Below, piece by piece: positions 3,399 through 59,611 of a stretch of DNA of 64,000 bases. Below the pieces are notes generated by a model. It did not search any database. It saw nothing but the letters and a program-made list of their open reading frames with translations, and was not told the DNA's origin. How positions within the stretch are numbered: position 1 is the stretch's first letter; each line of letters begins with the position of its first letter. This stretch comes from Chloroflexota bacterium (lineage in GTDB: Bacteria; Chloroflexota; Anaerolineae; Aggregatilineales; Phototrophicaceae), in NCBI GenBank assembly GCA_016223085.1, contig JACRPS010000006.1, positions 1 to 64,000 of the forward strand, written 5' to 3'. The position numbers and the translations under genes are program-made.

Positions 3399-4211
3399 CT
3401 AGTGGTCGCGCCAGAACGCCAGCACGTCCTGCACGAACTGCGCCGACTGTGTTGGCAACATCATAAAGACGTGTCCGCCAGAATAACGTTTGATCTGCGC
3501 GCCGGGGATGAGCGTGGCGATTTCGTCCTGAAAGTGGGGCGGCACCAGCAGATCGTCGGGGCTGCTCATCACCAGCGTTGGCACGCTGATCTGCGGCAGG
3601 CGCGCGCGGATGTCATAGCGTTCCAGCGCGTATTTTTGCAGGTCGTACCCGGCCTGATTCATTTCCAGCGGGTCAGGCGGGGCGTTCACCCAGACATCCA
3701 GAAACGCTTCGTACCGGAAGACCGCCTCGCTTAACAGCAGAATGGCATTGTAGCGGTTGAGGATGTCACGCGGGACACCCCGATTCCGCATCATACGGCT
3801 GGTCTCCAGCATGAAGCCGGCTCGACCGGGGTATTCGGCGTGCGCCAGCGACACAGCGCTGACGAGGCTACGTACCTTATCAGGGTGGCGCAGCGCCAGC
3901 GTTTTGGCGATGCAGCCGCCCATCGAAATACCCAGGACATGCGCGGGAGTCATACCGTGATAATCGAGTATCGCGGCCACATCGTCGGCCATATCGTCTA
4001 TGGTGGCGACCGTGCCCGCCGGAACACAGCTTTGGCCGGCGCCGCGATTGTCAACCGTCAGCAGCCGGTAGCGCTCGCTCAACACCGGGCGTAAGGCCAG
4101 CGCCAGCACATCGTTACTGTGCGCACCCAGGCCAGGGATATAAACGGCGGGTTCGCCCGCGCCGTCCAGTTCGTAATGAATTTCGACTCCGTTTCGTAAA
4201 AATCCGGGCAT
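3399..4211 (-). CDS. Alpha/beta-fold hydrolase
   Basis: A 270-residue cytosolic hydrolase of the proline iminopeptidase/3-oxoadipate enol-lactonase type. Visible features are an oxyanion-side GAGEPAVYIPGLGAH strand-loop, the nucleophile elbow GISMGG, an acidic residue in SSPDDLLVPP, and the catalytic His in YSGGHVFMM. The start is placed at ATG 4211 because GGGAAAGG stands about 7 nt upstream; the frame is open to a TTG at 4259, which would add 16 non-conserved residues. Substrate cannot be predicted. It is followed on the same strand by nothing until the antiporter. Confidence 0.82.
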   Translation of the reverse strand: MPGFLRNGVEIHYELDGAGEPAVYIPGLGAHSNDVLALALRPVLSERYRLLTVDNRGAGQSCVPAGTVATIDDMADDVAAILDYHGMTPAHVLGISMGGCIAKTLALRHPDKVRSLVSAVSLAHAEYPGRAGFMLETSRMMRNRGVPRDILNRYNAILLLSEAVFRYEAFLDVWVNAPPDPLEMNQAGYDLQKYALERYDIRARLPQISVPTLVMSSPDDLLVPPHFQDEIATLIPGAQIKRYSGGHVFMMLPTQSAQFVQDVLAFWRDH

Positions 4212-4300
4212 GAAAAAACCTTTCCCGTTCGCTTCCGGTTTCCAGTTGAATAAACTCAATTGTAGTTCGGAACGGGTGACTGGAACTCATTCCTCCCTCA

Positions 4301-5185
4301 CTACCGCCGTCGTCGCACCGCCAGCGCAACCACCGCCATGACCGCCGTTCCCAGCAGCGGCAGGATGCGCAAGGTGTCCAGAAACAGGTCATCCAGGCCG
4401 AACATCCAGCGGACGCGCTGCTGCGCCACCCATTCCGGCACCACACCTTTCCACTGCACCATAAACGTTTCCGCACCGACCGGATGGCGCAGGCGCTTCG
4501 AACGTCCATCGGCAATCGCCAGGACAGTCTGCGCCACCGGCATGGGGTCGGGGCTGCCAGTGTACAGCCGTTCCCAGGCAGCATATACCCGGCGGCGGGC
4601 AGCGTCGTAATCGGCGATGGGGTGGGCGGGCTGGCGCATCCGGTTCCCGATTTCGCTGCGGAAGAAACCGGGTTCCACCAGTGCTACCCGAATGCCCAGC
4701 GGCTGCACTTCGTACAGCAGCGATTCGGTGTAGCCTTCCAGCGCGTTTTTGCTGGCGGCGTAAATCCCCTGGAATGGCCCGCCGCCCATGCCGGCCAGCG
4801 AACTGATGTTGATTATCACACCGCTCCCCTGGCGACGCATCTGTGGCAGCACCGCCTGCGTCACTCGCATGACACCGAAGAAGTTGGTTTCAAACAGCCA
4901 TTTGGCTTCGTCCACGCTGGTTTCTTCGGCGCTGCCGAACATGTGCACGCCGGCGTTGTTCACCAGCACGTCCAGCCGCCCGGCGCGTTCGATCACCGCC
5001 GCCACACACGCCATTACGGACGAGTCGTCGGTCACGTCCAGCGGCAGCAGGTCATAGCCGTCTAATGTGTCACTGATTGGGTTGCGGCTGGTGCCAAACA
5101 CGCGGTAGCCGTGCCGCACCAGCAGCGCCGCCGTCTGCCGACCGATGCCGGTTGAAGCGCCCGTGACGAGCGCGACTTTTACCAT
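4301..5185 (-). CDS. SDR family oxidoreductase
   Basis: A 294-residue classical short-chain dehydrogenase. The NAD(P)-binding GASTGIGRQ motif is at residues 9-17, NNAGVH near 85, the catalytic Ser lies in NISSLAG, and YAASKN supplies the Tyr and Lys of the YxxxK motif. After the Rossmann fold there is a C-terminal extension with a hydrophobic segment (LRILPLLGTAVMAVVALAV) that may associate with the membrane. The basic residue after GAST and the RNP stretch favour NADP. It lies 89 nt upstream of the hydrolase on the same strand, so the two may be co-transcribed. Substrate is unknown. Confidence 0.85.
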   Translation of the reverse strand: MVKVALVTGASTGIGRQTAALLVRHGYRVFGTSRNPISDTLDGYDLLPLDVTDDSSVMACVAAVIERAGRLDVLVNNAGVHMFGSAEETSVDEAKWLFETNFFGVMRVTQAVLPQMRRQGSGVIINISSLAGMGGGPFQGIYAASKNALEGYTESLLYEVQPLGIRVALVEPGFFRSEIGNRMRQPAHPIADYDAARRRVYAAWERLYTGSPDPMPVAQTVLAIADGRSKRLRHPVGAETFMVQWKGVVPEWVAQQRVRWMFGLDDLFLDTLRILPLLGTAVMAVVALAVRRRR

Positions 5186-5200
5186 GCATTCCCCTTACGC

Positions 5201-5553
5201 TCAGGTGTAAAATCGTTTAAGAACACGGCAGATTGCCAGGCTGACCCACAGACCGACTTCCTTATCACCTGCTCGAACGACGGTTAGCTTCCAGCATCCG
5301 TCTGCCTGCTGCTGGGTTACGAACCATTCCAGGGCCCTGGCGATCAGCGGAGTATCCCGTGTAAACCCGATCAAAGACAGGGAGTCCAGCGCCGACACGA
5401 ATTCGGTGAACCAGAACGGATATGAAAATGTTGTCCAGAAGCGCACGGCCTGCCGGTCCACACAGGTGTCGCGGGTAAAAAGCGGGAGGCCAGCCGTTCA
5501 CCCGCAGCCCTGACCTCATTATAGGGGATAACCAGCCTCCCATCACTGAATCC
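5201..5553 (-). pseudogene. Remnant of a prenyltransferase-like / toroid repeat protein, C-terminal part with a 1-nt frameshift
   Basis: Reading on the minus strand right after the TAG stop of the acyl-CoA dehydrogenase gene, the frame gives DGRLVIPYNEV and then AAGERLASRF. It then needs one extra T in the A5 run at 5477-5481 (plus strand) to continue as FTRDTCVDRQAVRFW and FWFTEFVSALDSLSLIGF, ending at 5201. The second part resembles the C-terminal end of hypothetical terpenoid-cyclase-toroid proteins (PFWW..LSALDSL..GF and LW pattern). There is no start codon and the N-terminal two thirds are missing. Family placement is from memory of pattern only. Confidence 0.55.
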
Positions 5554-7008
5554 CTACGTGACTTTCTGCCCGATCAGCGCCCGCGCCGTGAAATCTGCCA
5601 GGGCTTCGATCAGTTCCTGCGAGTAGGCTTCCTTAGCGTCCTGCGGCAGCGCCAGCACCGAGTCAACCCGCGCCGCCATGTCCGCGCTGTCGTCGGCGGA
5701 GGCCAGCGGCGCCAGATAATCGAACAGCAGGCGGTGCGCGCCCTTGCGCTCCATCACTTCCAGCCCGTCGAGGATTTGCCGGTGCGGCGGTCCTTCCCAG
5801 ATGTCCACGATCATCGCTTCGCGCAGCCAGCGTTCCACGCCGTACTCCTGCAGCGTGCCCAGTCCGCCGTTGACCTCCATCGCCCACTTGGCAGTCTGCA
5901 CCGCGACTTCGGCAGTGGTATATTTGGCGAGGTGAATCATCAACCGGCACAGGTGGAAGGTGTCGCTGTAGGGCGGCACGTGGTAGCGCACGGCGTCGGC
6001 CAGTTTGACCGATTCCCACGCCAGCGCGAAGGCGCGCCGCACCGCGTCCAGCCGTTTATCAAACTGGCGACGCAGCAGCGGGTGTTCGATGATCGGCTTG
6101 CCGAAGGCCACCCGCTGTTCCGCGAATGTCAGCGCCTCCGCCAGCGCGCGCTGCGCCAGCGCCACGCTGCCAATGCTGTTTGCCACGCGCGACAGATTCA
6201 GCACTTCGAGAATCAGATAGATGCCCCACTCCGGCCTGCCGAGCAAATAGGCTTCGCTGTCGCGCAGTTCGATCTCGCCGGTGGGCACGGAGCGGGTGGC
6301 GATTTTGTCCTTCAGCCGCCGGATGTGGTAATTCAGGCTGCCATCCTCACGCAGGCGCGGCAGCAGGAACAGCGCCAGCCCGCGCACGCCCGGTTTGCCG
6401 CCGTCCACCCGCGCGGCCACTACCGCCACGTCCGCGCCGGCGTTGCTGGTAAAATACTTGTCGCCGGTCAGCCGCCAGCGGTCGCCGTTGGGACAGGCCA
6501 GCGTCTCCACGTTTGCGCCCAGGTCGCTGCCGCCGCGAATCTCGGTCATCCAGGTCGCGCCCTGCCACACCGAGTCATCCCGGCGCAGCAGCGGAGTCAG
6601 AAAACGCGCTTTCAGGTCGGGCGAACCATATTTGTCCAGTGGCACAGCGGTTGACAGGGACACCGTGTAAGGGCAGTACAGGCCCGTGTCATAAAAGCCG
6701 GTGACATAGCCAACCAGAAACGACGGCGCGAGCGACTCGCCCTCGAAGGCGCGCCAGGTCGCCCCGGCTTTATACCCCTGCCGGAGCATCCGCCAGTAAT
6801 CCGGCGGGAAGCCGATTTCGTCCACGCGGCGGCCAAAGCGGTCGTGCTGTGTCAGCCAGGGTGTGCCGGCGCGGTCAACGGCGGCGGAGATGGCGCGGCC
6901 TTCTGACTCCCACCACGCCTCATATGCCCGCAGGTCGTGCCCGAAAGGAAGGTCTCCCAACAGATTATCCAAAAGTTTCGTCGGCGATTTCAGTATTTCG
7001 AGTTGCAT
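5554..7008 (-). CDS. Acyl-CoA dehydrogenase (AidB-like)
   Basis: A 484-residue flavoenzyme. The middle region has GATWMTEIRGGSDLG and the LTGDKYFTSNAGAD block that contact FAD and substrate. The C-terminal helical domain has EQRVAFGKPIIEHPLLR and MEVNGGLGTLQEYGVERWLREA. The length and the WMTE..GGSD motif fit the AidB/isovaleryl-CoA-dehydrogenase-like branch rather than short classical enzymes of about 380 residues. The start ATG 7008 begins the conserved part; the frame stays open upstream to 7131 without similarity. No electron-transfer flavoprotein gene is nearby, and the physiological substrate is unknown. Confidence 0.85.
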   Translation of the reverse strand: MQLEILKSPTKLLDNLLGDLPFGHDLRAYEAWWESEGRAISAAVDRAGTPWLTQHDRFGRRVDEIGFPPDYWRMLRQGYKAGATWRAFEGESLAPSFLVGYVTGFYDTGLYCPYTVSLSTAVPLDKYGSPDLKARFLTPLLRRDDSVWQGATWMTEIRGGSDLGANVETLACPNGDRWRLTGDKYFTSNAGADVAVVAARVDGGKPGVRGLALFLLPRLREDGSLNYHIRRLKDKIATRSVPTGEIELRDSEAYLLGRPEWGIYLILEVLNLSRVANSIGSVALAQRALAEALTFAEQRVAFGKPIIEHPLLRRQFDKRLDAVRRAFALAWESVKLADAVRYHVPPYSDTFHLCRLMIHLAKYTTAEVAVQTAKWAMEVNGGLGTLQEYGVERWLREAMIVDIWEGPPHRQILDGLEVMERKGAHRLLFDYLAPLASADDSADMAARVDSVLALPQDAKEAYSQELIEALADFTARALIGQKVT

Positions 7009-7131
7009 ATATTTGTGTTCCCCCACAACTATTGAACCGGGATTGTAACCCTGTCGTGCAGCAACCTGCAACCGATGGCCGGGAATCAAAAGGGCGGCCC
7101 GGTCAGGCCGCCCCTGTGCCAGCATATCCAT

Positions 7132-7815
7132 TTACCCGTTTTTGGGCTTTTCGTCGGTGTCGTCGGCCAGCGCCTCGTCAATCCTGCGCTGGAGTTCAGG
7201 GTCGGAATACCGCTGCGTGCTGTTACCGGTGTTCACCAGCCGTGCGCCGGTGAATACTGGCGCGTCGTCGTTCTTGGACTTGCGGCTGCTCAGGCGTGGC
7301 GCATTGCCCCGGAACAGCATCAGCGCGCCCAGGCCGATCAGCACCAGCGGCAGCGCCAGCCCACCGAGAAAACCGCCACCGCCGAAGATCATCAGTTCAA
7401 AGATGGCCGCCGCAATCAGGAACGCGGTGCCGCCAAAACGCACGAAGCCGCTGCCGGTGTTATACGTGCCCTCGTCACCCGTGCGCCGCCCCATAAACTG
7501 AAGCGCCAGCCCCAGAAACACCGGATACAGCAGCCAGGCATAGGCCCAGCTTTCCCAGTGGCCGGTCAGGTTCTGGTACAGCAAAATCGCGCCCGTGCCG
7601 CCGATAAGCGAACCCGGCACGGCCAGCCCGGCCTGATTCCTGCCGCCCGTAACCGCGAAGTACAGGAAGGCCGCACCGGGCAACAGGATAAACAGCGGCC
7701 ACAGCGCGCCAAACAGGCTGAAGTTAAACGTTTGTCCGAACAGGAACAGCAGGCCGAGGCCGATTAACACAACGGCGGCTATCGTTCTGCCGGTGTCTGG
7801 TTGTGAGCGATTCAT
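7132..7815 (-). CDS. Multi-pass membrane protein with LiaI/LiaF-like (DUF5668) transmembrane segments
   Basis: A 227-residue protein with about seven hydrophobic segments starting at residue 10. The pattern IGLGLLFLFGQTF, then LWPLFILLPG and later LPLVLIGLGALMLF repeats the 'ΙGxGxLxLx...WPLxLI' layout of DUF5668/LiaI-LiaF-like membrane regions, here written twice in one chain. The C-terminal tail of about 60 residues is hydrophilic and cytosolic by the positive-inside rule. It is divergent from the AraC-type regulator gene. Function is unknown; relatives take part in cell-envelope stress sensing, which is not shown for this one. Confidence 0.6.
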   Translation of the reverse strand: MNRSQPDTGRTIAAVVLIGLGLLFLFGQTFNFSLFGALWPLFILLPGAAFLYFAVTGGRNQAGLAVPGSLIGGTGAILLYQNLTGHWESWAYAWLLYPVFLGLALQFMGRRTGDEGTYNTGSGFVRFGGTAFLIAAAIFELMIFGGGGFLGGLALPLVLIGLGALMLFRGNAPRLSSRKSKNDDAPVFTGARLVNTGNSTQRYSDPELQRRIDEALADDTDEKPKNG

Positions 7816-7930
7816 ATGGGTGTTCTCCCTCTCTGGTGTTATCTATGTTCCTGTACGCACCATCCGAATGGAAAGTTGCGCGATGGGACAGGCGCGGTAG
7901 CATTAATTGACCAACGTGCAGGATAGGCCG

Positions 7931-8857
7931 ATGGAAGCCAAAAATATTTACGAACAGCGCATCAACCGCGTCTTTGATTACATCCGTGAACATCTGACGG
8001 AAGACCTGTCGCTGGAGGCGCTGGCGCAGGTCGCGCATTTTTCGCCCTATCACTTCCACCGCCTGTTTAAAGCCATCACCGGCGAAACGGTGAAGCAGTG
8101 TACCAACCGGCTGCGGCTGGAGCGCGCTGCCGCCCTGCTCAAGACATCACCCACCCTGAGCGTGACGGATGCGGCCTTCGCCTGCGGCTTCCAGTCCGCG
8201 TCCAGCTTTTCACGGGCGTTCCACCAGCATTTTGGTATCACGGCGCGCGCCTGGGACCGGCTGAGTCCACTCAAAGAGAGCAAGAATCGTGAAGTACTGG
8301 ACGGATTTCATCAGTATACTGTAGCTGAACTGCACGAGGTTGGCGAAACTGCCGGGTTCGGCGTGCGGGTGCGCGATCTGCCGGCGCGGTGGATGGCCTG
8401 CATCCGCGTGGTGAACTCGTACCAGCCGCACCGGGTCGCTGCGGCCTACGCCCAGTTGCTGGAGTGGTATCGCAGCCGGGGCGGCGACCCGCTGCGGGCG
8501 CAGCTTATCGGCATGTCGCAGGACGATCCGGACGTAACGCCACTGCGGCTGTGCCGCTACGACGTGTGCCTGACCATGCCGGGCGACTGGACGGCCAGCG
8601 GCGAGGTCAGCGCCCGCGAGTTCCCGGCCTGCCGCGCCGCGATCATCCACTGTGCCGGCGATATTTATCTGGTAGACCGCGCCTGGCAGTACCTGTACCG
8701 CTACTGGCTGCCGCGCAGCGGTTACGTGCCGGATAACCTGCCGGCGCTGGAAATCTTCCGGCGGCAGCCGGCGGATATCGGCTGGGAGTATTACGACCTC
8801 GAATGTGCGGTGCCGGTGGTCATGGTCGGGATGGAAACCAGTTTAGAGGAGGCCTGA
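7931..8857 (+). CDS. AraC family transcriptional regulator with GyrI-like effector domain
   Basis: A 308-residue regulator. Residues about 5-105 hold the two helix-turn-helix AraC motifs ([20 protein letters not shown] and [20 protein letters not shown]). Residues about 140-300 form a GyrI-like/effector-binding domain ending in AVPV. This is the Rob/SoxS-Rob-like layout seen in drug-responsive regulators. ATG 7931 is chosen; a TTG at 7907 would add eight residues. The stop overlaps the start of the next gene as TGATG, so the glyoxalase is translationally coupled. Ligand unknown. Confidence 0.88.
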
Positions 8858-9192
8858 TGAATCTCGGAACGTTTTCGGTCAGTCTGGCAGTCAAAGATAT
8901 TAAAGCATCGCGCGAGTTTTATGAAAAGCTGGGCTTTGAGGTGTTCGACGGCAAGGAAGAAGACAACTGGCTGATGCTGCGCAACGGCACGACCAAAATC
9001 GGGCTGTTTCAGGGCATGTTTGAGGATAACATCCTGACGTTTAACCCGACGGACGTGCGCGGCATCCAGAAGGCGCTGAAGGCGCAGGGCATCACCTTTA
9101 CGCTGGAGGCCGACGAAAGCACCACCGGCCCCGCCCACGCCACGCTGCTCGATCCCGATGGCAACGCCATTCTGATTGACCAGTTTGTGTAA
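8857..9192 (+). CDS. VOC/glyoxalase superfamily protein
   Basis: A 111-residue single-domain vicinal-oxygen-chelate protein. It has [20 protein letters not shown] at the N-terminus and [13 protein letters not shown] at the C-terminus, the usual two babab modules. The start ATG 8857 shares a base with the TGA of the AraC gene. Ribosome site GAGGAGG lies inside the upstream gene end. Enzyme activity cannot be assigned: VOC proteins include lyases, dioxygenases and antibiotic-binding proteins. Coupling to a GyrI-domain regulator would fit a drug or toxic-aldehyde response; that is inference. Confidence 0.85.
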
Positions 9193-9208
9193 TCAAACGG
9201 CGGTAACC

Positions 9209-9237
9209 GTAGGGACGTGGCGCCGCCATGTCCCTAC
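9209..9237. repeat. Palindromic repeat family A, copy 1
   Basis: GTAGGGACGTGGCG is followed by its near-complement ending in GTCCCTAC, with one mismatch in 14, then ACAGACC. It sits between the converging glyoxalase and potA genes and might double as a terminator. Other members share the GTAGGG...CCCTAC ends. Confidence 0.8.
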
Positions 9238-9257
9238 AGACCCGTTTCAACGTTGAG

Positions 9258-10430
9258 CTATTGCAGCAGTATCCGCGTGTTTTCGCCGTTCCAGTACAGG
9301 TTAACTTCCTGACCATCGTCAAAAAACGTGTCCGAGCGCAGGCCGAAGTTCTGCACGCGGGCGACCACATCCTGATCGCCGGGGATACGGATGATGTACC
9401 GGGTGTCCGTGCCGATGTAAATCGCCTGCCGCACGCGCCCGCGAATCAGGTTCATGTTGGGCACTTTCAGCAGCGACCGCATGTATTCTTCGGTAGTTTC
9501 GGTTGAGCCTTCCTCGTACTCAACCACGCCCTTGACGGGGAACAGATTGATCTTCTCCGGTCGCAGCGCCAGCGTGACCTTTTGCCCCACGCTCACGCTC
9601 TGGTCGCCGGTCACGGCTTTCACGATGCAGTTCTCATCCAGCCGCACGTCAACCCATTCCCCGCTAACGCCGGCCACTTCCGCCTGAACGAAGTTGGTTT
9701 CGCCGATGAAGTCCGCCACAAACTTGGAGTTGGGGGATTCGTAAATCTCGTCCGGCGTGCCCACCTGCAGCACCTTGCCCTGGTCCATTACGGCGATGCG
9801 GTCGGCCATCGTCATGGCTTCTTCCTGGTCGTGCGTGACGAAGATGAAGGTGATGCCCAGGCTTTTCTGCATGGCTTTCAGTTCGTACTGCAACGCCTGT
9901 CGCAGCTTGAGGTCAAGCGCACCCAGCGGTTCGTCCAGCAGCAGCACCACCGGACGTTTGACCAGCGCGCGCGCCAGCGCCACCCGCTGCTGCTGCCCGC
10001 CCGAAAGCTGGCGCGGTTTGCGGTCTTCAACGTTCGGCAGGCGCACCAGTTGCAGGGCTTCCCGCGCGCGCTGCTCGGCTTCCCGGCGCGGCACGCCTTC
10101 CATTTCCAGGCCGAACATTACATTTTTCAGCACCGTCATATGCGGGAACAGGGCATAATCCTGAAAAACCGTGTTCACCGGGCGATGAAACGGCGGCACA
10201 TGCTGCACGGCCTTGCCCCGAATCAGAATTTCGCCGGCGGTGCTGTCCTCAAACCCGGCGATCATCCGCAGCGTGGTGGTTTTGCCGCAGCCGCTAGGCC
10301 CCAGCAGCGCGAAAAACTCGCCCTGGTGGATTTGCAGCGACACGTTGTCTACCGCCCGCGTAATGCCTTCCCGGTTGCGGGCGGTGAATTCCTTCACCAC
10401 GTTTTTCAGTTCAACATCAATCGCGGCCAT
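9258..10430 (-). CDS. potA: Spermidine/putrescine ABC transporter ATP-binding protein PotA
   Basis: A 390-residue ATPase. Walker A is GPSGCGKTT near residue 36, the signature LSGGQQQRVALARAL near 135, Walker B VLLLDEPLGALD near 155, and the switch His in FVTHDQEEAM. After about residue 240 comes a TOBE_2 domain of the kind found in PotA/CysA importers. ATG 10430 follows AAGAGGAGCA, an excellent ribosome site. It is the last gene of the potBCDA operon and energises uptake through PotB and PotC. Confidence 0.93.
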   Translation of the reverse strand: MAAIDVELKNVVKEFTARNREGITRAVDNVSLQIHQGEFFALLGPSGCGKTTTLRMIAGFEDSTAGEILIRGKAVQHVPPFHRPVNTVFQDYALFPHMTVLKNVMFGLEMEGVPRREAEQRAREALQLVRLPNVEDRKPRQLSGGQQQRVALARALVKRPVVLLLDEPLGALDLKLRQALQYELKAMQKSLGITFIFVTHDQEEAMTMADRIAVMDQGKVLQVGTPDEIYESPNSKFVADFIGETNFVQAEVAGVSGEWVDVRLDENCIVKAVTGDQSVSVGQKVTLALRPEKINLFPVKGVVEYEEGSTETTEEYMRSLLKVPNMNLIRGRVRQAIYIGTDTRYIIRIPGDQDVVARVQNFGLRSDTFFDDGQEVNLYWNGENTRILLQ

Positions 10431-10455
10431 TGCTCCTCTTATACAAAATGCACGT

Positions 10456-10484
10456 GTAGGGGCGGGTTTCAGACCCACCCCTAC
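10456..10484. repeat. Palindromic repeat family A, copy 2
   Basis: GTAGGGGCGGGTTT pairs with ACCCACCCCTAC in a near-perfect hairpin between potD and potA. It can form a stem in the mRNA and could set different levels of the two genes. Confidence 0.8.
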
Positions 10485-10493
10485 GGAAAAATC

Positions 10494-11663
10494 CTAGCGC
10501 CCGACCTGGATTTTCAGCATATCCCAAGCGTCGTTGTAATACTGCTGCACATCCGGGTCATCCGGGAAGGCATCAATCGTGAACAGCTTTTCCAGCGTTT
10601 CCTGCGAGGGATAGATAATCGGGCTGTTCAGCAGGGATTCGTCAATCAGGCCGGCATCAATCGCGGCCTGGTTCGGCGAGGCAAACGCGGTGTAGTTGCT
10701 GATGTCCGCGCCGACCTGCGGGTGCAGGATGTAGTCAATGAAGGCTTCTGCCAGTCGCTGGTTCTGCGCACCTACCGGAATCGCCAGGTTATCTACCCAC
10801 AGATTCGAGCCTTCCTCCGGCAGCGCGTAGGCGTATTCCGTCGTGCAGTTCGGGTCTTCCTCGCAGGCCAGCGCCACCTGGAAAATGTCACCCATGTATT
10901 CCACCACCATATCGGCCTCGCCGCGCGCCAGCAGTTCCTGGCCGTCATCAGCAGCGATGCGCACGACGTTATTCCGTCCCTTCTCAATCAGGTAATCGGT
11001 GGCCTGCTGAATCTCATCAGGATTGGTGGAGTTGGGGTCAAAGCCATTCATGATGAGCGCCACGCCCAGCATCGAGCGCGGGTCATCCAGCCACGCCACA
11101 CGCGGCTGTGGATAATCAAAGATTTGGTTCCAACTGGTGATTTCCACATCTTCGCCCAGCACCTGCTTGACAGCCTCCACGTTGTAACCAATACCAATCG
11201 TACCCCACTGGTACGGCACAGTGTAAACGTTGCCGGGGTCGTACTCACGGTCCATCAGCGCCGGGTTCAGGTTAACGATATTCGGGATGTTTTCCTTCGT
11301 CAGCGGCTCCAGCAGACCTTCCGCGATCATCTGCCCAACGGCGAAGTCGCTGGGCACAACAATATCAAAACCGGGGTTGCCGGCGCGCAGGCGCGACAAC
11401 AGTTCTTCATTGCTGCCGAAGAAGTCGGTGGTCACCGTCACGCCGCAGGCGGCTTCAAAGTTCGGGATGGTATCTTCCGCAACATAGGTCGCCCAGTTGA
11501 GGACATTCAGCGCTTTGTTTTCCAGATTTAACACGTCTTCCGGGCAAACCCAGGGTTCGATGTCGGCGGCAGCAGTCGCTTCCGGCGTCGCCTCCTGCGC
11601 CAGCGCGGTGGTTCCCAGCAACAGCACGACACCCAGAATCAGCAGCAGGTAAAGCCGTTTCAC
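10494..11663 (-). CDS. potD: Spermidine/putrescine substrate-binding protein PotD
   Basis: A 389-residue periplasmic-type binding protein. Residues 1-20 form a signal peptide (LYLLLILGVVLLLG) with no lipobox, followed by an EATPEATA linker. The mature part has LNVLNWATYVAEDTIPNFE, VPSDFAVGQMI and YNDAWDMLKI, all typical of PotD/PotF folds. GTG at 11663 is chosen as start because AAGGAGG stands about 7 nt upstream; the frame is open to a TTG at 11687. It captures polyamine and delivers it to PotBC. Specificity between putrescine and spermidine is not determined. Confidence 0.92.
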   Translation of the reverse strand: MKRLYLLLILGVVLLLGTTALAQEATPEATAAADIEPWVCPEDVLNLENKALNVLNWATYVAEDTIPNFEAACGVTVTTDFFGSNEELLSRLRAGNPGFDIVVPSDFAVGQMIAEGLLEPLTKENIPNIVNLNPALMDREYDPGNVYTVPYQWGTIGIGYNVEAVKQVLGEDVEITSWNQIFDYPQPRVAWLDDPRSMLGVALIMNGFDPNSTNPDEIQQATDYLIEKGRNNVVRIAADDGQELLARGEADMVVEYMGDIFQVALACEEDPNCTTEYAYALPEEGSNLWVDNLAIPVGAQNQRLAEAFIDYILHPQVGADISNYTAFASPNQAAIDAGLIDESLLNSPIIYPSQETLEKLFTIDAFPDDPDVQQYYNDAWDMLKIQVGR

Positions 11664-53380: not shown

Positions 53381-53710
53381 ATGACAACACAATACGTGAC
53401 GATTAAAGGTTATATTCGCGATGGCAAACTCAACGTTGAGTTGCCGGATAATGTCGTGGATGGTGAGGTAGAGGTAAAAATTCCCATACCTGCGGAAGAG
53501 GATAAACCTTTAACAGAAGCGGAAATTCGGGAATTAATGACACCCAATCCAAAAACGATAGGCGAAATTCTGGAAGAGTTAAAAGAGAACAATGTAAAAG
53601 CATTTGATTATGAATTAGATGGCGCGATTATTACTCGGATGATGCGTGTCAGCATATGGGATGTGTTTATGGATATTATGCGCGATGTAAAGGGTGATAA
53701 GGATTGGTGA
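53381..53710 (+). CDS. Putative antitoxin-like small protein
   Basis: A 109-residue protein. The head (VTIKGYIRDGKLNVELP, then GEVEVKIP) resembles that of the PIN-linked antitoxin at 17317-16988. A helical acidic middle (KTIGEILEELKENN) follows. The reading frame is markedly AT-richer than the hydantoinase genes beside it. It is followed by a DUF4258/YgiT pair, so it belongs to a small toxin-antitoxin-like island. No toxin partner of the PIN type is adjacent. Role is inferred. Confidence 0.55.
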   Translation: MTTQYVTIKGYIRDGKLNVELPDNVVDGEVEVKIPIPAEEDKPLTEAEIRELMTPNPKTIGEILEELKENNVKAFDYELDGAIITRMMRVSIWDVFMDIMRDVKGDKDW

Positions 53711-53786
53711 TGCTAATTGCTTGTTCAAACACTTCACGCAAATGCTCAGGCGTGCTGGCGCAAGCGCCGTACGAATAGAGATATTT

Positions 53787-54070
53787 ATGGACAAAACGAG
53801 TATTGAAAGGCGTATTCGGCAGGCTGTGTACGAGGGACGATATGTTTTTACCGATCACGCGGTTGAAGAAGCTCAAGCTGATGGGTTGTGGCTGTCCGAT
53901 GTGATTGATGTGCTGCTGCACGGGGAACTTGACTCGGTTTATACTGAAGATGAACGCGGCGCTCGTTACGTGGTTCGTGGGATGTGAACGAATTTGAGGT
54001 AGATGTAGTGTGCCGCTTTCGGTCTGATGGCGTATTGTTGATTATCATCACCGTTTACGTAGTGGATTAA
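53787..54070 (+). pseudogene. DUF4258 protein, 1-nt frameshift near its C-terminus
   Basis: From ATG 53787 the frame reads MDKTSIERRIRQAVYEG, FTDHAVEEAQADGLWLSD and GARYVVRG, then stops at 53985-53987. One missing G in the run at 53979-53981 restores DVNEFEVDVVCRFRSDG and IITVYVVD to TAA 54068. H-x-x-E, the RY-V-RG block and a final IITVY are the DUF4258 pattern, a RelE-like small toxin type. The next gene, a YgiT-type zinc finger, is its usual antitoxin neighbour. Without the correction the last strand is lost. Confidence 0.7.
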
Positions 54071-54079
54071 GGTATATAC

Positions 54080-54328
54080 ATGAATAACCGCATCTATCCC
54101 TGCGAATTTTGTGATACGGAGCAGGAACAGGTCGAACAACGTGTGACGCTGACGATGCAGCGCAACGGGCGCTGGTATATCTTCGAGAACGTGCCTGCGA
54201 AGGTATGCCCCAACTGCGGCCACCGTTATTATGATGGCCCGACACTGCTGCGGTTGGAACAGATGATACGAGATAACTCTGATGACCTCCGCCCAGTGGA
54301 AGCATGGGCGTTTTCGCTGCCGACATAA
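54080..54328 (+). CDS. YgiT-type zinc finger protein (MqsA N-terminal-like)
   Basis: An 82-residue protein with two CXXC pairs: YPCEFCDTE and VCPNCGHRYY, which bind one zinc, as in the N-terminal half of MqsA/YgiT. The C-terminal helix-turn-helix of MqsA is absent. It starts 9 nt after the DUF4258 frame and is likely its antitoxin by context. AT-richer than the hydantoinase genes. ATG 54080. Confidence 0.8.
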   Translation: MNNRIYPCEFCDTEQEQVEQRVTLTMQRNGRWYIFENVPAKVCPNCGHRYYDGPTLLRLEQMIRDNSDDLRPVEAWAFSLPT

Positions 54329-56343: not shown

Positions 56344-56372
56344 GTGCCAACCTTACGAAAAAAAAGTATACT
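56344..56372 (+). promoter_or_regulatory. Candidate promoter of the 1057-residue protein gene
   Basis: GTGCCA (56344-56349), 17 nt, TATACT (56367-56372), start near 56379. Upstream, GCCACC/GGTGGC at 56263-56278 is a short stem that may end the HyuB transcript. Confidence 0.45.
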
Positions 56373-56437: not shown

Positions 56438-59400
56438 GTGGCGGCTGTAAATTACGAACTGGAGCATTTTTATTACGGCCAATTGGTGCGCGAGGGGAAG
56501 CCGGACGGTGAACTGCGGCTGCTGGCATCGTCTTCCGGCGTGAAATCGGAACACGTGGCCGAGGCGGTCAAGCAGGCGCTGCTGCCGCCGCAGCTTGGCG
56601 CGCCGCGCGGCGCGTGGGCGCTGGTGCGCGGCAAGCAGCACGTACCGTTTGTGCTGGTGCAGTCGGCGCTGGGGGAAGCCGGGCAGAGTATCCTGCATTA
56701 TGTGATCGCGCCGCCGGAAATGCTGCGGGCGATGGGCGGCAATCTGATGGCGCTGATGCGGGTGGTGGACGACCGCCTGCCGGTGTATACCGAGCCGGGC
56801 AAAAAGCTGCTGCCGCTGGTGTTGCCGCCTGCCGACGCGCCCTCGGCAGAGACGCAGATTGACGACATCCTGAACCTGATGAGCTGCACGCGCAACCGGA
56901 TTGATACCATCCAGTCGCTGCTGTCCGCGATTGTCCAGGGCGTGCCGCTGGTGGTACAGGGCGCGCCGCCGGAGCTGGAAACGCGCGTCCGGTTTGTGCA
57001 GGGACTGCTGGCGCTGCTGCCGCCATCGGCGCGGTTTGGTGTCACATTTGCCACTCACAGCCTGCCGACCACCAAACTGGACGCCCAGATTCGCTTTCTG
57101 CCTGACGAGATGGCGCTGGCGGACGCGCTTATCTACAACTGGGCGGATGGCACAATTTCCGGCAGCAACGTGGACGACGGTTACAGCCGTTTCATTTCCA
57201 GCCAGCTCCGGCTGGATGCCGACCTCGTCATTCAGCAGACGCGGCGGCTGACGGCGGTGGCGGCCTGGCGTATCAAACGCGGCGACCGGCTGGCCGACGC
57301 GCTGGGTTACGCCGCTTACCGCTTTAAGATTGACGAGGCGCTGCTCAATAACCAGCCGGTCGAAAGCGCGGAAGTTTCCAAGATTTTGGCGGAAGACCCA
57401 ACGCTGCCCGACGATCTGCGTGTGGCCTATGCCCGGCACGTGCTGGCGTTTGCGCTGGCGCTGGGTGATATGCAGCCCGCCGAACCGGTGGCGATCATGC
57501 TGCGCCAGCATCCTGATCTGGACCGGGTACTGCGTACCCAGTTTAACGACGCCGTCAGTGAAGGCAAGGCCGGGTTGGTTTACGATACCCTGTCGCGCTG
57601 GCTGGCGAATCCGCTGGGACCGGTTGGCACGGGCTGGGTAGATGTGACGCACCGCGCCGCCATCGCCCACATGGAAACGCTGGTGCAGTCGCGCGACGTA
57701 CGCGCCATCAACCGGTTTCTGGAAGAAATTCATCACGCCAGTCCTGGCGTTCAGGTCGGCGGGATGGTGCCCCGGCTGATTGAACTGGCGCTGCCCCTCA
57801 GCCTGACCGACGAAGACCTGAACCTGACCGTCTTCCTGCTGGCGATCAACTACTTGGACAGCGACCGCCTGCGGAATCTGCTGGCGTCGGAGCGATTCAC
57901 GGCGCGCCTGCCGCTGAGTCTGTCGCGGCTGACGCCGTATCTCACCGGCAGCGACCCCGGCATGGCGCCGGCGGGCCTGTTGATGGACACGGCCAGCGCC
58001 TTTGGCGACGACTGGCGCGATCTGGTATTGATCCGGCTGGCGGAAGCGGCGGTTATGGCGCGCCGCCCCGATCTGGTGGACACGCCGGCGCTGGCCGGGT
58101 TGGTGCGCCTGCTGCCGCTGCCGCTCGGTTTGCAGTACAGTCAGGTTCTGGCGTGGATTGCCAAGAATCTGTCAACTGACGAGGCGCTGCCCCGGCTGGA
58201 AGACCCCGGCCCGACCTATCTGCTGCAAATCCTGCTGTCCACCGGCGCCTATGCTGAACTGGCGAGTGAGATGCTGCACCAGGCGCGCCTGCTGTACCCC
58301 GGCGATAAACAGGCGGATTATGTGGCGGTCGTGAGGCGTCTGTTTGCGGAAACGCCGATGAACACTGACCAGGTGCCGGTGGCGCTGGAAACGATCACCA
58401 ACAGCGGTATCAAGGCGCTGCCGCTGACGATGGCTTATATCGGCGCACTGGAAGGCCACGAGTGGTCGTCGGCGCTTGACCCGGTGGCGGAAGCCGCAAC
58501 CCGACTTTTGTTTGAGAATCAGGAAATCATCAGCGTGATTCAACCGACGGCGATGATCGCGCTGCTGAAATTTCACATTAAGCGCAAGGACGTGTCCAAT
58601 ACCATCCGGGTGGGCGGTCTGCTGGCGCAGGTGGCGTCCCGCGCTGGCAGCCAGGGGATTGGCATCGTCGGGCGCATGTACAAGCTGATGGATTGGGATG
58701 ACAAGGTGAAGCTGGCAGGACTGGAACTGCTGCGCCGCTACGTGCGGCAGGCGAAGGAGGAAGACGCCCGCCGCGCGGTGAACACCTTTGGCCGCGAATT
58801 TGGCACGGTCATCCAGCAGCCACTGGAAGCGACCTTTGCCGTTCGCCGTATGATGGGCGGGGTTGACCTCCCCACTTATGCGGAATTTCTGCATATCACC
58901 GGCGATTTCCTCTACGACACGGCAGCGGCCTACAGCGACCCGAAACGCCTGCCCACGCTGGGATCGCTGATGAACGACCTCGACAGTATGCCCGGTGGCC
59001 TGACCGACGATGACCGCCGCGCCATTATGCGCGAACTGTTGGGGCTGGGGCGGGCGATTGTCGTGCTGGGTGATTTCCAGCTTGCCAACCGCCCACGCGA
59101 CGGCAAACAGATTGAAAACCTGCTGGCAGGCAAGGCTGACCCGGTGAGCGCACTGGATGTGTTCTGGGTGATGGGCGGCTACCTGACAAAAGGCAAACGC
59201 TACCCACTGCGGCTCAAGCCGCCGTCAAGTGTCAGCACGCACACGCTCGGAGAACGGTCCGCGCCGACGTTAAAGGAACAGGTCGAAATTATCAATGGCC
59301 TGCTGCGCAGCCTGATTCGCGCTTTCCCGCCGGACCGCCGGGTGAGCGTGCGGGCAGCAGCCATCCGCAACGAACTGGAGAGCCTGTGGGGCGACCTGCC

Positions 59401-59611
59401 GCTGGCGAAACGGCGCGAAATCGTGCGCAATCTGGCGATCAACTTCCAGCGTGTGGCCGAACTGGTCGTTATCATCACCGAGCAGGGCAACGCGAAGGCG
59501 CTGGACGACAACACGCTGGGGCGCAAGCTGGACGAGAGCCGCCAGCAGCCGCGCAACACGCTGGAATTCTACCGCTTCGTTCACGGCTACTTCAAGCAGC
59601 GCACGCGGTAA
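56438..59611 (+). CDS. Large protein of unknown function, possibly GAP1-N-like at its start
   Basis: A 1057-residue soluble protein, GTG start at 56438. The first about 250 residues (FYYGQLVREGKPDGELRLL, GAWALVRGKQHVPFVLVQS, LPPSARFGVTFATH) resemble GAP1-N, the N-terminal domain of GTPase-associated protein 1 in bacterial conflict modules; this is a pattern match only. The rest is alpha-helical and Leu/Ala-rich with no motif I recognise (PLTMAYIGALEGHEW, then VRQAKEEDARRAVNTFG), perhaps an alpha-solenoid. No transmembrane segment. No GTPase or other system component lies next to it. Ends with a helical tail FVHGYFKQRTR. Confidence 0.6.
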   Translation: MAAVNYELEHFYYGQLVREGKPDGELRLLASSSGVKSEHVAEAVKQALLPPQLGAPRGAWALVRGKQHVPFVLVQSALGEAGQSILHYVIAPPEMLRAMGGNLMALMRVVDDRLPVYTEPGKKLLPLVLPPADAPSAETQIDDILNLMSCTRNRIDTIQSLLSAIVQGVPLVVQGAPPELETRVRFVQGLLALLPPSARFGVTFATHSLPTTKLDAQIRFLPDEMALADALIYNWADGTISGSNVDDGYSRFISSQLRLDADLVIQQTRRLTAVAAWRIKRGDRLADALGYAAYRFKIDEALLNNQPVESAEVSKILAEDPTLPDDLRVAYARHVLAFALALGDMQPAEPVAIMLRQHPDLDRVLRTQFNDAVSEGKAGLVYDTLSRWLANPLGPVGTGWVDVTHRAAIAHMETLVQSRDVRAINRFLEEIHHASPGVQVGGMVPRLIELALPLSLTDEDLNLTVFLLAINYLDSDRLRNLLASERFTARLPLSLSRLTPYLTGSDPGMAPAGLLMDTASAFGDDWRDLVLIRLAEAAVMARRPDLVDTPALAGLVRLLPLPLGLQYSQVLAWIAKNLSTDEALPRLEDPGPTYLLQILLSTGAYAELASEMLHQARLLYPGDKQADYVAVVRRLFAETPMNTDQVPVALETITNSGIKALPLTMAYIGALEGHEWSSALDPVAEAATRLLFENQEIISVIQPTAMIALLKFHIKRKDVSNTIRVGGLLAQVASRAGSQGIGIVGRMYKLMDWDDKVKLAGLELLRRYVRQAKEEDARRAVNTFGREFGTVIQQPLEATFAVRRMMGGVDLPTYAEFLHITGDFLYDTAAAYSDPKRLPTLGSLMNDLDSMPGGLTDDDRRAIMRELLGLGRAIVVLGDFQLANRPRDGKQIENLLAGKADPVSALDVFWVMGGYLTKGKRYPLRLKPPSSVSTHTLGERSAPTLKEQVEIINGLLRSLIRAFPPDRRVSVRAAAIRNELESLWGDLPLAKRREIVRNLAINFQRVAELVVIITEQGNAKALDDNTLGRKLDESRQQPRNTLEFYRFVHGYFKQRTR

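Follow-up and report, generated by a model that had tools for sequence, protein, structure and literature searches.

How does a protein related to GTPase-associated protein 1 (GAP1) work when it is encoded alone? The question is raised by one gene in a stretch of 64,000 nucleotides from a Chloroflexota bacterium of the order Aggregatilineales (assembly GCA_016223085.1, contig JACRPS010000006.1, positions 1 to 64,000), which is called the window in the following. The gene is a GTG-started open reading frame (ORF) of 1057 amino acids (aa) exactly at window positions 56438-59611 on the forward (+) strand, and its product, here called the orphan, had been described in a first-pass annotation as perhaps GAP1-like. 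We give a probability of roughly 0.55 to the reading that the orphan is a bacterial GTPase-regulator scaffold consisting of a DENN-like module and a long alpha-solenoid, in which the two lobes of the module would regulate a small GTPase.

A vertically inherited gene with homology to GAP1

The orphan gene is real and under purifying selection, because its same-genus orthologs are 56-78% identical to the window protein, nearly all of them over the full length, and the NG86 dN/dS is 0.14-0.28 in four pairs (0.21 for window-L031, 0.22 for window-L032, 0.14 for L032-L034, and 0.28 for window-L035). Two of the same-genus orthologs are fragments at contig edges, and in other families of the order identity is about 25-35%. 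The source genome is an assembly of 6.0 Mb in 37 contigs with a completeness of 97.85%, and its named relatives are metagenome-assembled genomes of Anaerolineae, Anaerolineaceae, and Chloroflexi. The orphan profile (A1) was built from 37 rows, namely the window protein and 36 of 40 ortholog loci, leaving out L033, L041, and L060 as close to other rows and L068 as short. The minus-strand rows of A1 and of the paralog alignment A3 start without the first residue, and the L070 row of A1 is frame-shifted near its end, which lowers the C-terminal conservation counts.

With this profile an ortholog is found at E < 1e-100, the threshold (best E) also used for the co-occurrence counts below, in 103 of the 154 genomes of the order and in seven of its eight families (f1 57/98, f2 0/9, f3 18/18, f4 5/5, f5 1/1, f6 2/2, f7 10/11, f8 10/10). 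In a maximum likelihood tree made by a quick method every family with at least two rows forms one clade, and both the paralogs of about 900 aa and the proteins linked to DO-GTPases, the latter on long branches, fall outside the orphan clade. Since the gene tree follows taxonomy, the orphan is a vertically inherited core gene, single-copy as an ortholog, and it looks like such a core gene rather than a patchy defence cassette. Across the phylum, a search that scored two candidates per genome, and thus leaves room for a wider distribution, matched 2 of 301 genomes with the ortholog profile, the source genome itself and one of the same family.

Single-sequence searches say little about what the gene encodes. 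Pfam gives nothing above threshold for the window protein, only GAP1-M at residues 159-224 with E 0.038 and 14.6 bits against a curated cut-off of 24, and no GAP1-N2 match; NCBIfam, PADLOC, and the PDB sequences give no match at E up to 1, in agreement with the first-pass statement that the long remainder holds no recognised motif. At E up to 1, Pfam GAP1-M is seen in 15 of the 37 orthologs (best E 0.0032). Pfam GAP1-C is matched neither by the window protein nor by its orthologs.

Sensitive profile searches support the relationship to GAP1. A profile of three GAP1-like proteins encoded beside DO-GTPase2 (A2; L076, L089, and L124, without orphan rows and without the fourth DO-linked protein, L090) matches the window protein at E 1.9e-18 and 140 of the 154 genomes of the order at E 0.001, the ~900-aa paralogs included. 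Aligned to A2 by hhalign, the orphan profile reaches a probability of 99.4 and E 8.7e-22 over 500 columns. Against eight canonical GAP1-N2+M sequences (A5, again without orphan rows) the probability is 94.1, with E 1.3e-7, and the alignment of 232 collinear columns scores 68.2, compared with 21.6 at most in 50 column shuffles and 17.0 for the reversed profile. The A5 set leaves out L098 (masked), L148, L149, L152, L153, and L155, and its L123 row was picked for its position between two DO-GTPase genes, not by the Pfam test. A merged N-M profile gives 97.3% and E 1.9e-11 (score 87.5, against at most 20.0 in 50 shuffles), and a canonical profile of three sequences (A4) gives 48% and E 1.8e-4 (47.2, against at most 24.8 in 30 shuffles). 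The orphan is thus collinear from its N-terminus with canonical GAP1-N2+M, and by this homology it belongs with GAP1-N (type N1 or N2).

The relationship is also visible in a short signature, L-P-x3-R-x4-F-x-T, at residues 194-206 (window 57017-57055, +), the spacing of which is equal in the orphan, DO-linked, and canonical GAP1 rows. L194, P195, and R199 are invariant among the orphan rows, F204 is near-invariant and T206 the majority residue; P, R, F, and T are invariant in A2 and A4; in A5 this holds for P, F, and T, and R is absent from some canonical rows. Taken from sequence, these comparisons support the view that the orphan is a divergent relative of GAP1, not a member of GAP1 as Pfam defines it. 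The earlier call of a GAP1-like protein, which had related only the first quarter to the GAP1 N-domain, is therefore borne out for the N region and was too narrow, because the similarity also covers the M region and, for the DO-linked set, the helical part.

Predicted fold and resemblance to DENN modules

The model of the whole protein has a mean pLDDT (predicted local distance difference test) of 90.7 and a pTM (predicted template modelling score) of 0.60, and it shows two alpha/beta lobes followed by a helical solenoid. The N lobe (residues 6-109; window 56453-56764, +) corresponds to GAP1-N (N2-like) by its modelled secondary structure and by the A5 profile match. Its elements come in the order strand, strand, helix, three strands, two helices, which we take to be the order of a longin domain. 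The M lobe (residues 137-245; 56846-57172, +) is an alpha/beta domain corresponding to GAP1-M by the sub-threshold Pfam match and the model, and we propose that it may be the counterpart of the central DENN lobe. The remainder (residues 248-1056; 57179-59605, +) is an alpha-helical solenoid in the model, with HEAT/ARM-type structural matches and no strand past residue 242, so the long helical remainder expected from sequence is what the model shows.

Structural comparison of residues 1-292 by VIA-align finds DENND1A (Z 10.2, 237 residues aligned, 5.5 A), DENND1B (Z 10.0, 255 aligned, 5.9 A), and DENND10 (Z 10.0, 260 of 357 aligned, 5.5 A), and among the 50 matches listed these three DENN proteins alone start before residue 200. 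In a Foldseek search with the orphan model, DENND1A/1B chains come at ranks 2, 6, and 8, each at a probability of 1.00. The top match is the solenoid protein importin 13, and the matches of solenoid residues 275-811 are to generic HEAT/ARM proteins and little informative. An independent model was made of residues 1-290 of canonical GAP1, from eight sequences with no orphan rows. The first five Foldseek matches of this model all belong to entries with C9orf72-SMCR8, DENND10, and FLCN-FNIP2 (TM-score 0.22-0.37 by query; E 4.3e-6 at best and below 0.001 in two rows), and in VIA the model matches DENND1A and DENND1B at Z 11.5 and DENND10 at 9.7. In rows 4-16 of the same VIA comparison, where Z falls from 7.8 to 6.4, the entries contain other DENN or longin proteins; the chains matched in GATOR1, SEA, and similar complexes are presumably their DENN or longin subunits. 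The layout of a longin lobe, a central DENN lobe, and a helical d-DENN part is therefore found in predicted models, by approximate superpositions, and in our reading the resemblance of the orphan and GAP1 to DENN points to deep homology or to a common fold but does not prove descent.

TagF of type VI secretion (PDB 9t0n and 6iz8) also matches the canonical GAP1 model, over 233 residues with Z 6.3 and, for 6iz8, 4.6, and a DENN-like arrangement may be common to TagF as well. A kinase and an FHA protein belong to the TagF pathway, and both kinds of protein are also encoded at locus L124 described below.

Across the 37 orthologs 16 residues are invariant, and 15 of them lie within residues 194-388, five in the M lobe and ten in the first solenoid helices. 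On the reading that we prefer, the longin-type N lobe (GAP1-N) and the second alpha/beta lobe (GAP1-M) would form a DENN-like module that grips a small GTPase as DENN modules grip Rab, Arf, or Rag GTPases. The module would then change the nucleotide state of the GTPase, either as an exchange factor or as a GTPase activator, and the solenoid would bind other proteins. DENN modules are exchange factors whose three domains all take part in binding the small GTPase (Zhang et al., 2012; PMC3521125), FLCN has been described as an activator of GTPases, and GAP1 genes adjoin GTPase genes (Kaur et al., 2020; PMC7159879). Because DENN modules act on GTPases and GAP1 genes adjoin GTPase genes, we infer that GTPase regulation is the likeliest function of GAP1 and, by descent, of the orphan.

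DO-GTPases, a candidate partner and neighbouring genes

A GAP1-like gene lies directly after a DO-GTPase gene at four loci of the order, L076 (751 aa), L089 (673 aa), L124 (1023 aa), and L090 (1003 aa), the L090 protein being the weakest GAP1-like one (E 1.8e-6 in the ortholog search and 7.2e-8 in the A2 search). A hidden Markov model (HMM) of seven DO-GTPases (A7, from which L090, L099, and the second DO-GTPase of L097 were left out) found no DO-GTPase in the fetched flanks when run over 3512 ORFs of 41 orphan loci, window included; its sole match there, at E 0.022, is a 64-codon fragment of the candidate small GTPase described below. At the comparison loci the same HMM found 11 DO-GTPase ORFs at E <= 1e-18, seven of which are its own training rows. 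Two profiles find no DO-GTPase2 in the 97.85% complete source genome, either at E 0.001 (39 of 100 candidates scored) or at E 0.01 (35 of 38 scored). Strong DO-GTPase matches (E < 1e-13) occur in only 9 of 61 genomes; the orphan or a paralog is matched in 55 of these. The orphan, as tested, is not part of a DO-GTPase system, in which its gene would stand next to, and as a rule downstream of, a DO-GTPase gene.

Several of the comparison loci have features of their own. L124 carries on its minus strand (4495-10888) a TIR-FHA gene (280 aa), a Ser/Thr kinase gene (577 aa), DO-GTPase2 (260 aa), and the GAP1-like gene, which likely form an operon; the C-terminal region of the kinase was read as vWA, and Pfam confirms the kinase only. 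The gene order of L076 is similar (kinase, DO-GTPase2, GAP1-like). L090 (3202-10180, +) shows an AAA+ ATPase and a radical-SAM-activase-like gene (names read from sequence), then a DO-GTPase-like ORF (6006-7172, HMM E 1.5e-20) that overlaps the 1003-aa GAP1-like gene by 4 nt. At L071 (10411-12408, -) a 665-aa protein with a weak DO-GTPase HMM match (E 3.2e-5, 20.1 bits) is encoded convergently with a ~900-aa paralog gene, 1 nt apart, and at L125 (1889-8825, +) two large proteins read as tubulin-like precede a 359-aa DO-GTPase with no obvious adjoining GAP1.

Without a DO-GTPase, the orphan would act on another GTPase, and the best candidate is a GTPase of about 178 aa with Pfam ATP_bind_1, Ras, and Arf matches (G000:C28:68558-69088 in the source genome). 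This GTPase is found in 99 of the 103 genomes with the orphan, the other four being assemblies 68-86% complete, and in 12 of the 51 without it; the p-value of 2e-21 ignores relatedness, and 23 genomes were counted as lacking the GTPase by subtraction. By genus, it occurs in 49 of 49 with the orphan and 8 of 12 without (p 0.0009). Its gene stands in a block with genes for a DUF4388 protein, a trypsin-like protein, a TY-Chap1 protein, and a Ser/Thr kinase. A control gene of this block, presumably DUF3048-like, is present in 149 of 154 genomes with paralogs counted and shows no association with the orphan (p 0.17, likewise without regard to relatedness). In 11 of the 99 genomes the GTPase gene lies at most 12 kb from the orphan on one contig (G002, G004, G008, G009, G010, G012, G015, G016, G020, G404, and, as a fragment, G033), and a small GTPase with a DUF4388 gene is near the orphan in 4 of 40 loci. 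The Ras/Arf-like GTPase is named as a candidate partner, not as a finding. The source genome has a second small GTPase, 49% identical to the candidate, at L162, about 5 kb from a 123-aa protein read as roadblock-like (positions 4015-4386 and 9297-9827).

In the window, a hydantoinase-like gene lies about 200 bp upstream of the orphan gene and a LacI-like gene about 390 bp downstream (names read from sequence), so that the gene does stand alone, as first described. As to the MoxR, vWA, or GTPase genes proposed as possible neighbours of its homologues, no neighbour cluster is conserved across loci, and the commonest clusters, with only representatives annotated, occur in at most 11 loci and follow subclade. 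A Ser/Thr kinase gene is within the flanks of 8 of 40 orphan loci (it was identified in L045), and in L047, L049, and L050 it directly follows the orphan gene on the same strand, 1-47 bp behind it. The orphan's own promoter, also part of the first-pass annotation, is plausible only: a weak promoter-like site at 56344-56372 (+) matches the consensus in 9 of 12 bases, a consensus match being no evidence of function, and the scanned 3.9 kb holds 4 such sites against 1.0 +/- 1.0 in shuffles. Further upstream, two small ORFs of 97 and 82 aa, the latter with CxxC pairs, lie at window 53694-54328 between two hydantoinase-like genes and look, by sequence, like a toxin-antitoxin type pair.

Alternative readings and comparison with known systems

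Several observations weigh against a DENN-like GTPase regulator. As to the fold, the Foldseek alignments of the orphan with DENN chains have TM-scores of 0.37-0.40 by target and 0.16-0.17 by the long query, a root-mean-square deviation (rmsd) of about 13 A, and E 7e-4 to 1.4e-3; VIA rmsd values are 5-6 A, and VIA itself warns that middling Z-scores are common. The canonical GAP1 model is of low confidence (pLDDT 57.1, pTM 0.63), and its top Foldseek row superposes at TM 0.24-0.28 with an rmsd of 16.6 A. Among the PDB sequences, profiles A6 and A1 detect no DENN chain at E up to 10, and the Pfam DENN families are unmatched by the window protein and its orthologs. None of the 16 invariant residues is in the N lobe, where a longin lobe would help to bind the GTPase, and no catalytic residue can be named in the orphan. 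As to the partner, 8 of the 9 f2 genomes and four further ones carry the ~178-aa GTPase but no orphan, and this GTPase therefore has other roles; in the source genome the GTPase block and the orphan are on separate contigs, C28 and C29; and 33 of 39 co-absences fall in one genus, so that independent events are few. The control gene's ortholog in the block likewise seems to have gone from the genus in which losses are most frequent, and part of the co-absence may be one deletion.

The moderate to low TM-scores, the high rmsd, and the missing sequence signal would be expected if the DENN resemblance were convergence or an aligner artefact, and the orphan a GAP1-like protein with a fold of GAP1's own. 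We hold this unlikely, given that only three DENN proteins among the 50 matches listed start before residue 200 and that they span nearly the whole module, that a second model from other sequences has entries with DENN or longin subunits (presumably, for some of the matched chains) in its first 16 VIA rows, and that the neighbours of GAP1 relatives are GTPases. To a similarly small degree we credit a structural alpha-solenoid scaffold, for example a hub for a Ser/Thr kinase, that has kept the GAP1/DENN fold and lost GTPase binding: the solenoid is three quarters of the protein, the N lobe has no invariant residue, and the kinase genes described above, co-oriented and directly downstream in three genomes, fit such a hub, but lost binding should have relaxed the M lobe, and 15 of 16 invariant residues lie within 194-388. 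Least likely of all is a component of a GTPase-centred conflict system of the kind described by Kaur et al., encoded apart from its partners and defending with a distant DO-GTPase, for which the GAP1 homology and the TIR-FHA and kinase genes at L124 and the kinase gene at L076 may speak, since the tree is vertical, no neighbour cluster is conserved across the partly annotated loci, no DO-GTPase2 was found in the scored part of the source genome's candidates or in the flanks of the 41 loci, and DO-GTPases are far rarer than the orphan or its paralog, so that the conflict system brought up by the first-pass annotation is not supported in the sense of a mobile, effector-bearing cassette.

Returning to a GTPase-regulating DENN-like module, a wider and more tentative proposal, for which we would put the odds somewhat below even, is that GAP1 as a whole represents prokaryotic DENN modules regulating DO-GTPases, and that this order turned one of them into a stand-alone core gene acting on a Ras/Arf-like GTPase. 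The view of GAP1 as a bacterial DENN module draws on two predicted models and on genomic logic. GAP1 has been a named protein without assigned mechanism since 2020 (Kaur et al., 2020; PMC7159879), and if the DENN-like fold is true it would regulate the GTPase encoded beside it. The earlier idea of a GAP1 relationship is thus supported and extended, and the predicted DENN-like fold is the new point: by text search, the words "DENN" and "longin" are both absent from the main text of Kaur et al., and among the matches listed in the open-licence PubMed Central literature none connects the full DENN module with GAP1 or with any other protein of bacteria. Zhang et al. (2012; PMC3521125) have the DENN module assembled in the eukaryotic stem lineage and trace its longin domain to MglB-like domains of prokaryotes. 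A true DENN fold would challenge this origin, in that eukaryotes would not have invented the module or it would have two separate origins, and the GTPase-switching machinery would gain a bacterial branch. To test the idea two proteins would suffice, the orphan and one small GTPase.

Among known systems, the orphan can be compared with a ~900-aa paralog family (A3, from the same bacterial family, leaving out paralogs of 616-638 aa), with which it aligns over 884 columns (100%, E 7.9e-75). These paralogs form a separate clade, and at several loci their genes come after cdd- and recO-like ones (gene names taken from sequence). In other genera the paralog of about 900 aa keeps both lobes, whereas the copies seen in the window's genus are of about 616-638 aa and without N and M lobes, so that the DENN-like part of the paralog seems to have been lost there. 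The copy in the source genome (638 aa; G000:C27:78093-79922, or L122 8034-9950, +) is of this lobeless kind and likewise follows cdd- and recO-like genes, as named from sequence. With the L076, L089, and L124 proteins the orphan aligns in N, M, and part of the helical region, but these proteins are rare (3 of 154 genomes at full-length strength), have 673-1023 aa, and adjoin a DO-GTPase gene; two of the DO-linked loci also carry a protein kinase with a C-terminal region read as vWA, of which Pfam confirms the kinase. Canonical GAP1, of the N2 type and from DO-GTPase systems (Kaur et al., 2020; PMC7159879), shares with the orphan the collinear N and M regions, the signature spacing, and a similar order of secondary structure in the models. 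It differs in that the orphan stays below the Pfam GAP1-M cut-off, has no GAP1-N2 match and no DO-GTPase found with it, and is a vertically inherited single-copy ortholog, near-universal across the order. With DENND1A/1B, DENND10, C9orf72-SMCR8, and FLCN-FNIP the orphan has in common a predicted longin-type lobe and an alpha/beta lobe, then helices; unlike these DENN proteins it has no detectable sequence similarity to them, is bacterial, and is fused to a long solenoid, and its activity as a regulator of GTPases is a prediction from this shared layout.

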